Source: an uncultured Acidobacteriota bacterium (lineage in GTDB: Bacteria; Acidobacteriota; Thermoanaerobaculia; UBA5066). Taken from it: a stretch of 34,321 nt of DNA. The DNA lies in the NCBI GenBank assembly GCA_937888435.1, contig CALAQS010000255.1, positions 1 through 34,321 of the forward strand. Direction: 5' to 3'. Both the position numbers and the translations under genes were made by a program. Of this stretch, positions 6,340-22,054 are shown in pieces; the stretch's first letter is position 1; the number at the start of each line of letters is the position of its first letter. The notes below the pieces were generated by a model. It was not told the DNA's origin. It was given only the letters and a program-made list of their open reading frames with translations, and made no database searches.

Positions 6340-7742
6340 TCAAACATTCCACAGCGCGCGGCGCCGTCGCCGCGATCAGCCTCTTCCTCCTTCTGAGCAA
6401 TCCTCTTTCCTCCCACGCGCTCGCCGACGATCCGCCGAAGGCGCCCGACGCGCCGGCCCCGACCGACACTCCGAAACCCATTCAGACCGACACCGAGAAG
6501 CTGAAGGAGCTCGAGCAGAAGGTCGATGTGCTCACGAAGGAGATCGAGTCGATGCGCCTCGGCGAAACGCCGGCGCAGCAGGCTCCCCCCGCCTCCGGCA
6601 CGGCAGCGGTGGCCCCTTCGTCGGCGGCGCCCACCCTCGGACTCGGGCCGTCGGCCTCGAAGGTCTACGCGAAGTACGGCGTCTCGATCGGCGGGTACGG
6701 CGAGACCATCTACCAGAACTTTTCGACCGCTCGCCAGGACGGGTCTCCGTCGAATCTCACGCCGATCGTCGACGTCGCGCGAGCCGTCCTCTACTTCGGC
6801 TACAGGTTCGACGACCATTTCGTCTTCAACAGCGAGGTCGAGTTCGAGCACGCCGTGACGGCGTCGGACAAGAACGGCGAGGCCGAAGTGGAATTCGCCT
6901 ATATGGACTGGATGAGCCGCTCGAAGGCGTTCAACCTCCGCGCGGGCCTCATGCTCATTCCGGTCGGACTCATCAACCAGCTCCACGAGCCCCCGGTCTT
7001 CCTGGGCTCGCTGCGCCCGGACGTGGAGACCATCATCCTTCCCTCGACGTGGCGGGAGATCGGCGTCGGCGGGTGGGGCGACGTCGGACCGTTTTCGTGG
7101 CGCCTCTACTTCGTGAACGGACTCGACGCGTCGCGCTACGCGGCCGATGGCCTGAAGGAAGGGAGCGGCGAGGGCTCGCTGGCGCTCGCGCGGAGCTTCG
7201 CCGTCACCGGCCGGCTCGACTACACCGGCCTTCCCGGCGTCCTCGTCGGCGGCTCGTTCTTCAGCGGGAATTCCGGACAAGGTCAGGTGACGCCGTCGGG
7301 AGACTCCTTCGCCGGCCGAACGACGTTCGTCGATCTGCACCTCGACGCGCGCTATCGGGGCGCGTCCTTCCGCGCGGTGTGGGCACGGTCCACGGTCGGG
7401 GACGCCGCCGCCATCAACCAGATCAACAACCTCGAAGGCGACGAGTCGGTGGGCAGTCGGCAGGAGGGCTGGTACGCAGAGGCGGGCTTCGACGTCTTCT
7501 CTCTCGTGCCGAAGAGCCGGATGACGCTCACGCCGTTCGTGAGGTACGAGGCGTACGACACCCAGGCCGCCGTGCCCGTGGGCTACGCTCGGGATCCGGA
7601 GAACGACGTGCGGGTCGTGACGGCCGGTGCGAACTTCAAGCCGATCCCGCAGATCGTCATCAAGGCCGACGGCCAGTGGCGGCGGAACGCGGCGTACACC
7701 GGGGTGAAGCAGTTCAACATGGCGCTGGGGTACGAGTTTTGA
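6336..7742 (+). CDS. Outer-membrane porin-like protein (OprO/P-like) with N-terminal coiled coil
   Basis: Signal peptide, coiled coil KLKELEQKVDVLTKEIESMRL, beta-barrel-like body, C-terminal LGYEF (terminal aromatic). GTGA overlap with apbE. Confidence 0.65.
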   Translation: MIKHSTARGAVAAISLFLLLSNPLSSHALADDPPKAPDAPAPTDTPKPIQTDTEKLKELEQKVDVLTKEIESMRLGETPAQQAPPASGTAAVAPSSAAPTLGLGPSASKVYAKYGVSIGGYGETIYQNFSTARQDGSPSNLTPIVDVARAVLYFGYRFDDHFVFNSEVEFEHAVTASDKNGEAEVEFAYMDWMSRSKAFNLRAGLMLIPVGLINQLHEPPVFLGSLRPDVETIILPSTWREIGVGGWGDVGPFSWRLYFVNGLDASRYAADGLKEGSGEGSLALARSFAVTGRLDYTGLPGVLVGGSFFSGNSGQGQVTPSGDSFAGRTTFVDLHLDARYRGASFRAVWARSTVGDAAAINQINNLEGDESVGSRQEGWYAEAGFDVFSLVPKSRMTLTPFVRYEAYDTQAAVPVGYARDPENDVRVVTAGANFKPIPQIVIKADGQWRRNAAYTGVKQFNMALGYEF

Positions 7743-18998: not shown

Positions 18999-19210
18999 GA
19001 CTGGCCCGTTCCGGCATCCACCTGTTCGATGGTGAAAGGCGATCCATCGAGGCCTCGAACGGCTGATCCATGCCGGCCTTGACTCCCGTATGGGAAAAGG
19101 TTGATTCTGCGACATAATCTCGTTCTCACACACTTCCGGAATGTTCCACTTCGTCCCAAAGCCGAAGCGTCAATCCCACGAATCCGCAGAAACTCGAAGG
19201 AGGCACACAC

Positions 19211-19597
19211 ATGAACCGTCGCCAGTTCGCCAGCACCCTCGGAGCCGCCGTCGCCGGCATCGTCGCCGGCAAAGCCCTTCTCGCCGACGACAAGCCGGCC
19301 GAGAAAGACAAGAGCAACGACCACGTTTGCGCAGGCAAGAACGGCTGCAAAGGTCAGGGCGCCTGCGCCACGAAGGACAACACATGCGCCGGCCAGAACG
19401 GCTGCAAGGGCAAGGGCGGCTGCGCCTCGGCGTCGATGAAACACGACTGTTCGGGCAAGAACAAATGCAAGGGCCAGGGCGGCTGTAGCACGAAGGACCA
19501 CAAGTGCGCCGGCCAGAACGCCTGCAAGGGCAAGGGCGGCTGCGCGGTGCCGCTCAAGAAGAAGGCCGCACCCGCCGCCGCGCCGGCGGCCTACTGA
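19211..19597 (+). CDS. Cys-repeat bufferin-like RiPP precursor (BufA2-like) with Tat-like signal
   Basis: MNRRQFASTLGAAVAGIVAGKALLADD then four C-[AS]-G-[KQ]-N-x-C-K-G-[QK]-G-[GA]-C modules; AGGAGG ribosome-binding site; followed by DUF692 and DUF2063 genes. Confidence 0.8.
   Translation: MNRRQFASTLGAAVAGIVAGKALLADDKPAEKDKSNDHVCAGKNGCKGQGACATKDNTCAGQNGCKGKGGCASASMKHDCSGKNKCKGQGGCSTKDHKCAGQNACKGKGGCAVPLKKKAAPAAAPAAY
19328..19567 (+). repeat. Tandem duplication of a 120-nt (40-aa) unit inside the bufferin-like gene
   Basis: Cys codons 40/46/52/59/65/71 recur exactly 40 codons later at 80/86/92/99/105/111; the second halves of the two units differ by one base over about 40 nt (TGCGCCGGCCAGAACG[G/C]CTGCAAGGGCAAGGGCGGCTGCGC). 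Confidence 0.85.
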
Positions 19598-19608
19598 CCC
19601 CCTTCCCC

Positions 19609-20481
19609 ATGGGAGACCGGTTCGGATTGCCCGACCTCGGCGTGGGGGTCGGGCTCCGCACGGTCCACTTCGGTCACGTCCTCTCGAAGGCGCCCGAGGT
19701 GGACTTCTTCGAGGCCCTCACCGAGAACTTCCTCGACACGGGCGGGCGCCCGCGCCACATCCTCGACCGCGTCTCCGAACGCTATCCGGTCGTGCTCCAT
19801 GGCGTCTCGATGTCCATCGGAGGGACCGACCCTCTCGATCTGGGCTACCTGAAGAAGGTCAAAGCGCTCGCCGTGCGCACGAACGCGCGGTGGGTGTCGG
19901 ACCATCTCTGCTTCACGGGGGTTTCGGGGCGCAACACCCACGACCTGCTCCCCCTGCCGTACAACGAGGAGACGTTGCGCCACGTCGTCTCCCGCGTGAA
20001 GCAGGCATCCGAAGTGCTCGGGCAGCCTCTTGTCCTCGAGAACCCGTCTTCCTACCTGGAATTCCGCTCCTCGACGATGTCCGAAGCCGCGTTTTTCGCG
20101 CGCCTCCTGGTAGACGCCGACTGCGGGATGCTGCTCGACGTGAACAACGTCTACGTGAGCTCCGTGAACCACGGCTTCGATCCCATCATCTACCTCGACG
20201 CGCTGCCGGCGGACCGCGTCGTGCAGTACCACCTCGCCGGGCACACCGACAAGGGCACACACCTCCTCGACACACACAGCGCGCCCATGGTGAAGGACGT
20301 CTGGAAGCTCTACGCGCACGCGATCGCCCGCACGGGGCCGCGTGCCACGCTCTACGAATGGGACGAGGACATCCCGGACTTCGCGACCGTCCACGGCGAG
20401 GCGAAAAAGGCCCTAAAGTATCGCCCGCCGCTCGCGAGCGAATCCCGGGTCGACGCTCCGCGGCGGCCCGCCCGTGCCTGA
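19609..20481 (+). CDS. bufB: DUF692 / MNIO-family maturase (BufB-like)
   Basis: GVGVGLRTVHFGHVL...DFFEALTENFLDTGG...VVLHGVSMSIGGTDPL...VSDHLCFTG...LLDVNNVYVSSVNHGFDP...YHLAGHTDKG...DTHSAPM...YEWDEDIPDF. Confidence 0.9.
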   Translation: MGDRFGLPDLGVGVGLRTVHFGHVLSKAPEVDFFEALTENFLDTGGRPRHILDRVSERYPVVLHGVSMSIGGTDPLDLGYLKKVKALAVRTNARWVSDHLCFTGVSGRNTHDLLPLPYNEETLRHVVSRVKQASEVLGQPLVLENPSSYLEFRSSTMSEAAFFARLLVDADCGMLLDVNNVYVSSVNHGFDPIIYLDALPADRVVQYHLAGHTDKGTHLLDTHSAPMVKDVWKLYAHAIARTGPRATLYEWDEDIPDFATVHGEAKKALKYRPPLASESRVDAPRRPARA

Positions 20482-21289
20482 GTTGCCGCGCCTCGAGCGC
20501 TGGATGCAGGCCGTGATCGTCCATCCGGGCGCCGTGGAGAAGGCCGTTCGCGCCCGTTCCGCGGCGCGCCACATGAAGGCTGCCGAGGCGCGCCGTGCGA
20601 TCCTGCCTTCGAAGACGATGGCGCCGCTCGAGCGGCTCGCGGTCTACCAGGGGATGTACCCGCTGCGCATGCGCGACGCCCTCGAGGCCGACTATCCCGG
20701 TCTCGCGGCGTTCCTCGGACACGAGCGCTTTTTCGATTTCGTCCTCGCGTACGTCGCGGTCCATCCCTCCCGCAGCTACACGTTCGCCCGCCTCGGCGAC
20801 CACGTGCCCGAGTTCCTCCGAAGAACCCGCCGCTTTGGGCCCTCGCCTTTCCTCTACGACCTCGCGCGCCTCGAGCGCGCGGTCACCGAGGTCTTCGAAG
20901 TCGACGAGGAGGGCTCGGAACGCCCGTCACGTCCTCCCCGCCACGTCGCCGAGGACTGGGAGTCGCGCCGCTTCGCCACCCCTCCGACACTTCGCCTTCT
21001 GGCGTTCCGCCACGCCGCGGGCGCCGCGCTCGACGCGCTGAAGGCGGGGAAACGTCCGGAGACCCGCCCGCACGCGACGTGGGCGGCGCTGCACCGCCGC
21101 CGTTATTCCGTCTACCGTCTGGACCTGACGCGGGAGGAATTCCACCTCCTCGGGGCGCTCGCAAAGGGACGGACGCTCGGGGCGGCGCTTCGCGCGGCCG
21201 CCCGCGCGTGCGGAAAACCGCTCTCGCCCCGCGCCGTCACGCGCGCGTTTCGCATCTTCACCGCGGAAGGGCTTCTGCGCGAAGGTTGA
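20474..21289 (+). CDS. bufC: DUF2063 family protein (BufC-like partner of the MNIO)
   Basis: LERLAVYQGMYPLRMRDALEADYPGLAAFLGHERFFDFVLAYVAVHPSRSYTFARLGDHVPEFL; GTG start overlapping bufB. Confidence 0.85.
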   Translation: MPELPRLERWMQAVIVHPGAVEKAVRARSAARHMKAAEARRAILPSKTMAPLERLAVYQGMYPLRMRDALEADYPGLAAFLGHERFFDFVLAYVAVHPSRSYTFARLGDHVPEFLRRTRRFGPSPFLYDLARLERAVTEVFEVDEEGSERPSRPPRHVAEDWESRRFATPPTLRLLAFRHAAGAALDALKAGKRPETRPHATWAALHRRRYSVYRLDLTREEFHLLGALAKGRTLGAALRAAARACGKPLSPRAVTRAFRIFTAEGLLREG

Positions 21290-21290
21290 G

Positions 21291-21302
21291 GGGCGATCGC
21301 CC
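21291..21302. terminator. Possible terminator hairpin between convergent genes
   Basis: Perfect palindrome GGGCGATCGCCC immediately after the bufC stop and at the CDGSH gene stop; no U-tract. Confidence 0.25.
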
Positions 21303-21535
21303 TAAGGCTTCGGAGCCCGGGGCGGCAGATCGCACGCCGGCGGGTCCGACTGGAAGCCCACCTTGTTGTGCGTGCCGTCGCAGAACGGCTTGCTCGCGGA
21401 TTGGCCGCACCGGCAAAGGGCGATCGTCGCGCGGCCGCCGAGGCCGAACGCTTTCTCCGCGCCGTCCACGAGGCCGATCTCCCCGCTCACGAGGAGCGGG
21501 CCGTTGGGCTTCACCAGAATCTTCACGTCGCTCAT
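21302..21535 (-). CDS. CDGSH-type iron-sulfur domain protein
   Basis: 77 aa with CRCGQSASKPFCDGTH matching the C-x-C-x(n)-C-D-G-[ST]-H signature. Confidence 0.9.
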   Translation of the reverse strand: MSDVKILVKPNGPLLVSGEIGLVDGAEKAFGLGGRATIALCRCGQSASKPFCDGTHNKVGFQSDPPACDLPPRAPKP

Positions 21536-21544
21536 GTCATCACC

Positions 21545-22054
21545 TCAATGCGCCTTCTTCTCGAGATCGAGGAAGCGCTTCTTCGCGGTCTTCAGGAACT
21601 CGAACGACTTTCCCCTGCCTTCCCAACCTTCGAGCGTCACGTTCGCCGCGAGGCCCGGGCGCGACACGACGAGGGTCGGAAATCCGCGCAACCGATAGCG
21701 GTCCGCGAGCGCCACCATCTCGGGCGAGTTGCGCCCGGTCTCGCGCTCGCGATCCGCCACTTCGATCGGCACGAAATCCTTCTCGATCTGCGCGGCCATC
21801 TCCGGTACTGCAAAGACCTGCCCTGCGAGCAGCCGGCACGGCCCGCACCAGGCGGCCGTGAAGAAGTAGAGCGCGGGCTTTCCGCTCTTCTTCGCCTCGG
21901 CGTCCCCTGAAGCGATCGAGCGCCATCTGATCGACATCTTGCCGGGCGCGGGCTTCGAGGCGCTCGTGTCCGAGCGCGACGGGCCCGGAAGGGCGAGAAG
22001 AATCGCGAAGAGGGCGGCGGCGAACGGAGGAAAGGATCGTGGCATACGCATCAT
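21545..22054 (-). CDS. Secreted thioredoxin-like protein
   Basis: Signal peptide; ALYFFTAAWCGPCRLLAGQVF active site; RYRLRGFPTLVV cis-Pro motif. Confidence 0.85.
   Translation of the reverse strand: MMRMPRSFPPFAAALFAILLALPGPSRSDTSASKPAPGKMSIRWRSIASGDAEAKKSGKPALYFFTAAWCGPCRLLAGQVFAVPEMAAQIEKDFVPIEVADRERETGRNSPEMVALADRYRLRGFPTLVVSRPGLAANVTLEGWEGRGKSFEFLKTAKKRFLDLEKKAH

Follow-up and report, generated by a model that had tools for sequence, protein, structure and literature searches.

A probable minimal bufABC operon with a two-unit, 12-cysteine BufA2 precursor in an uncultured Acidobacteriota bacterium

In a 34,321-nucleotide stretch of DNA from an uncultured Acidobacteriota bacterium (the window), a short gene for a cysteine-rich repeated protein lies directly upstream of an MNIO gene. 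The questions were what this pair of genes encodes and whether the repeat is of recent origin, as had been proposed from the sequence of the window. Positions 19211–21289 most probably form a minimal bufABC operon with a two-domain BufA2 precursor, which would be modified, exported and used for chelating excess copper.

The precursor and its operon

The bufA2 gene (19211..19597, + strand) is a 128-aa open reading frame with an ATG start, directly preceded by the Shine–Dalgarno-like stretch AAGGAGG. Its translation has 12 Cys at positions 40, 46, 52/59, 65, 71/80, 86, 92/99, 105, 111, so that the four C-x5-C-x5-C modules and the 40-aa repeat of the original prediction were confirmed exactly. 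Comparison of the repeats delimits unit A (aa 40–71, modules 1 and 2, 19328..19423, +) and unit B (aa 80–111, modules 3 and 4, 19448..19543, +), offset by 40 aa and joined by a linker of 8 residues, with Cys gaps of 5,5,6,5,5,8,5,5,6,5,5 along the chain. There are four Cys-Lys sites of the N-x-Cys-Lys-Gly type, Cys46 and Cys65 in unit A and Cys86 and Cys105 in unit B, and 8 of the 12 Cys lie outside them. Since the Cys spacing is constant or almost so in 11 homologues, it is not due to chance. The product passes the NCBIfam BufA2 profile NF050166 with 63.7 bits (cut-off 60) in a match spanning only profile positions 4–64 of 79, and it had no match to PF10048 (DUF2282, Buf1) in the Pfam search at E values up to 1. 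AlphaFold2 with an 11-row alignment gave no usable fold (mean pLDDT 42.7), and a sequence search of the PDB with the precursor and BufC as queries returned no match.

The bufB gene (19609..20481, +; putative ATG start at 19609) encodes an MNIO of the MbnB_TglH_ChrH family, formerly DUF692, with 346 bits to PF05114 and 342 bits to the bufferin maturase profile NF050167 (cut-off 310). The bufC gene (20474..21289, +) encodes a DUF2063 partner, PME1/HvfC-like, with 53.7 bits to PF09836 (cut-off 27.2); its match to the NCBIfam HvfC profile, the sole trace of an RRE part, is sub-threshold (42.6 of 142 bits). The proposal of a two-domain bufferin beside an MNIO is thus borne out by the BufA2 and BufB equivalog cut-offs, both passed, and by the adjacent DUF2063 partner. 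Gene content, order, family membership and conservation are all observed: precursor, BufB and BufC follow one another in 10 of the 12 relatives examined, the exceptions being G001, whose contig stops before bufC, and G108, whose precursor stands alone. In the genome to which the window belongs (3.7 Mb, 366 contigs), the precursor and the MNIO each have a single match. DoxX, a core gene of bufferin clusters, adjoins the precursor or bufC in G005, G006 and G026; neither DoxX nor a copper gene directly adjoins the operon of the window. A promoter and terminator scan found nothing, and a plasmid search gave a single weak Asticcacaulis match. Convergent to bufC are genes for a CDGSH iron–sulphur protein (21305–21538, −) and a thioredoxin-fold protein (21545–22054, −); in G003, no CDGSH gene was found at the corresponding site.

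The window's BufB could be aligned with 3BWW and MbnB structures. It retains the His/Glu/Asp/Asn positions conserved among relatives, and its EWD motif lines up with the region proposed for the catalytic base. Against the MbnB model it reached only 62.8 of 325 bits. When residues were matched to FonB by way of the 3BWW alignment, Arg15-Arg16 of FonB corresponded to R17 followed by T18, the second Arg being absent, and the residue after the proposed catalytic Asp (D252) was E253, compared with Phe250 in FonB and Asp in Cys-Lys enzymes. T18 and the acidic E253 fit a substrate of the Cys-Lys type, whereas FonB is of the Lys-Cys type.

Unit number among relatives and age of the duplication

The closest homologues in named records belong to metagenome-assembled genomes of Thermoanaerobaculia/Acidobacteriota, which by itself would probably place the window in this group. 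Within the genus, sampled with one genome per species, the gene occurs in three of four species, always with 128 aa and the same layout. At the site in the sister species G002, bufABC is absent, and the CDGSH and thioredoxin-like genes come within about 50 nt after the upstream glycosidase, which is shortened in its C-terminal part (window 18999–21300 against L107 at about 7400–7700), and the G002 genome has no BufA2 or BufB profile match. G003 carries bufABC at the same site as the window, which indicates that the operon was gained or lost as a block.

The domain number of the precursor varies between genera. In its own family there are two units in G005 and G009 and one in G006, G007, G011 and G012, and all of these precursors have a BufB-type MNIO next to them. 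In the rest of the class and phylum, one-unit short-core forms (L073–L079, L085) and two-unit forms (G015, G032, G051, G054, G060, G077, G108, G119, G122, G184) both occur. Both G009 (L030/L092 on C185; L013 on C781) and G005 (L014, L035) encode a canonical 6-Cys BufA2 as well as a two-unit short-core BufA2, with a separate MNIO close to each of them. The one-unit precursors L031–L034 (G006, G007, G011, G012) have a second module, CRGHNACKGMGGC, that is closer to module 3 than to module 2 of two-unit relatives, and its sequence suggests the product of a module-fusing deletion. In the G108 precursor (L078/L098), with no MNIO found in the 13 kb retrieved, the units are identical in 32/32 residues, yet 6 synonymous codons differ.

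The Cys-Lys sites themselves also vary. Module 1 has CS in place of CK in G001 and G003, and CA in G009, from which three modified sites would be predicted in these genomes, compared with four in the window. In G026 (one unit), G035 and G050 both inner Cys are absent together, while the Cys of the Cys-Lys sites and the outer Cys are kept. This pattern would fit modification of the Cys-Lys Cys and an inner pair serving as a dispensable disulphide; it is weak evidence, because a single deletion removes both.

The near-identity of modules 2 and 4, reported as one base, was reproduced (1/39 nt), and in these modules all 12 shared codons are identical. Both facts speak for a recent, perhaps ongoing, tandem duplication or gene conversion that made or homogenised the second unit in this lineage. 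However, modules 1 and 3 differ at 10/39 nt and the complete units at 16/96 nt and 7/32 residues, so the near-identity of A and B is confined to the second half of each unit. This A–B divergence (16 nt) is not below that of orthologous units between species, which is 15–20/96 nt for A–A and 9–14/96 nt for B–B. Modules 2 and 4 of the window are each 2 nt from their own G001 orthologue, and in G003 the two modules differ at 8 nt. G001 and G003 share the layout and the length, and unit-specific stretches are retained across species, with TKDNT/TKENT/TPDNG-type residues in unit A and TKDHK in unit B in three species. The identity of the 12 codons has a P of about 0.024 with the codon usage found in these precursors, or 0.0024 with the window average, both for a module pair picked after the fact, and the 1-nt difference argues only weakly for a recent event.

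An exact label-swap test on 14 two-unit genomes, with G119 omitted from the unit tests, showed that the observed A/B labels were matched by 18 of 8192 arrangements (1 of 32 within one six-genome group). This favours pairing of A with A and B with B, although position-specific constraint could also be the cause. A recent duplication was rejected on comparison with G001 and G003 and is considered highly improbable, the doubling being regarded as old; conserved residues together with strong codon bias best account for the close match of modules 2 and 4, and a small local conversion between them may still have taken place. The view of the duplication as recent or homogenised finds no support: the genus has a fixed four-module layout, which turns up again in other families of its class and phylum, and the A/B differences are common to three species. 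The original prediction had named four-module homologues of fixed length in distant taxa as evidence against itself, and the distribution found comes close to this. Comparison of the genus with other families gave no signal of a shared origin of the duplication (net identity +5 over 33 genome pairs).

A putative twin-arginine-like export signal

The precursor begins with a signal-like segment (aa 1–25, 19211..19285, +), MNRRQFASTLGAAVAGIVAG, whose twin-arginine-like MNRRQF is found in three species of the genus (the window, G001 and G003). RRxF is also present in four further precursors from four other genera, as MDRRDF (G122), MNRREF (G108, G119) and MKRREF (G301), and one MNRREF precursor has a lipobox-like LTGC. 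Twin-arginine-like starts were located at 19211–19230 of the window and in L080, L078, L081 and L086, two of them with a lipobox-like Cys. Phe at +3 after the pair was found in 7/12 N-termini with RR and in 0/27 with KK, KR or RK, among sequences that are related and not independent, and many other precursors of relatives plainly have no RRxF. TatC is encoded in the window's own genome (E 9e-71). In the two main papers (PMC12452194, PMC13097082) the signals described are of the Sec or lipoprotein kind only, and the term twin-arginine is absent from both; we found no report of a Tat-like signal in bufferins, for which the literature states Sec. Judging from these N-termini, it may tentatively be proposed that a subset of bufferins in the phylum is exported via Tat instead of Sec, already modified, folded or metal-loaded.

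Proposed function and relation to known systems

In the proposed scheme, the two-domain BufA2 precursor would be made with its N-terminal export signal and presented by BufC to BufB, which in the cytoplasm would oxidise Cys46, 65, 86 and 105 of the N-x-Cys-Lys-Gly sites to 5-thiooxazoles. The remaining eight Cys would probably form disulphides; by analogy with Buf1 these would join the first and last Cys of a unit, and there may also be Cys52–Cys59 and Cys92–Cys99 pairs. Modified BufA2 would then be exported and chelate surplus copper outside the cytoplasm. With two units per chain the candidate metal-binding groups would be roughly doubled, and a doubled metal capacity, as envisaged from the repeat, is plausible. 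The choice of modified Cys, the role of copper, the route of export and the stoichiometry are all inferred.

It is unlikely that this BufA2-like protein deals with a different metal or with oxidative stress, although MerC–Buf2 fusions and gold-induced operons have been reported (PMC12452194), no copper gene adjoins the operon and one sister species is missing it: those members of the class that have been characterised bind copper, and the MNIO passes the bufferin maturase cut-off. It is hardly credible that the product is an unmodified, metallothionein-like exported protein whose adjoining MNIO acts on something else. That most of its Cys are not in Cys-Lys sites and that no MNIO was seen in the 13 kb retrieved for at least one homologue (G108) would agree with such a protein, but the BufA–BufB–BufC order is conserved in relatives and a single MNIO match accompanies the single precursor in the window's genome.

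Taken as a bufferin, the precursor falls within the Buf2 family (Buf_6/12Cys), in which 6 Cys are the rule (90%) and the remaining members have 12, with a 12-Cys member modelled as duplicated 6-Cys domains (Antoine et al. 2025, PMC12452194). The two-domain layout is therefore not new, having been published as a minority form of about 10% of members. The Buf2 of Caulobacter is similar to Buf1 in its function, in the mass lost per Cys and in its UV spectrum (PMC12452194), and Gadgil et al. 2026 (PMC13097082) count BufA2 among the thiooxazole metallophores of the Cys-Lys type. The window protein shares with Buf2/BufA2 the NF050166 match, the N-x-Cys-Lys-Gly sites, an N-terminal signal-like segment and the MNIO and DUF2063 neighbours. 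It differs in the twin-arginine-like motif of that segment, in an operon that has no DoxX and in the sixth Cys of each unit, which lies 5 residues past the Cys-Lys Cys and not about 12, giving gaps of 5,5,6,5,5 in place of the canonical 5,5,8,5,12 with the C-terminal sixth Cys replaced.

Buf1 (DUF2282) is, as proposed here for the window system, MNIO/DUF2063-dependent, exported and a Cys-based copper chelator; Buf1 has four conserved Cys and another profile, whereas the window protein has no PF10048 match. In oxazolin, fontiphorin and bulbicupramide (captophorins; PMC13097082, PMC12538549), an MNIO together with a DUF2063 partner modifies Cys cassettes that vary in number, as proposed here, but their EGKCG repeats are Lys-Cys and the window sites Cys-Lys; a NACKG substrate is not processed by FonBC (PMC13097082). 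Methanobactin (MbnA/MbnB) is a copper-binding RiPP made by an enzyme of the same family, unlike the window system in its short leader peptide without an export signal, its MbnC partner and its oxazolone-thioamide.

The locus is a further two-domain bufferin operon, well conserved, from a lineage that has received little study. From genus to genus the unit number shifts, but the Cys grammar does not. The Tat-like signal, if real, raises the question of whether the export of some bufferins takes place only after folding. The natural series of one unit, two units and units without the inner Cys pair could be used to learn which Cys are modified.
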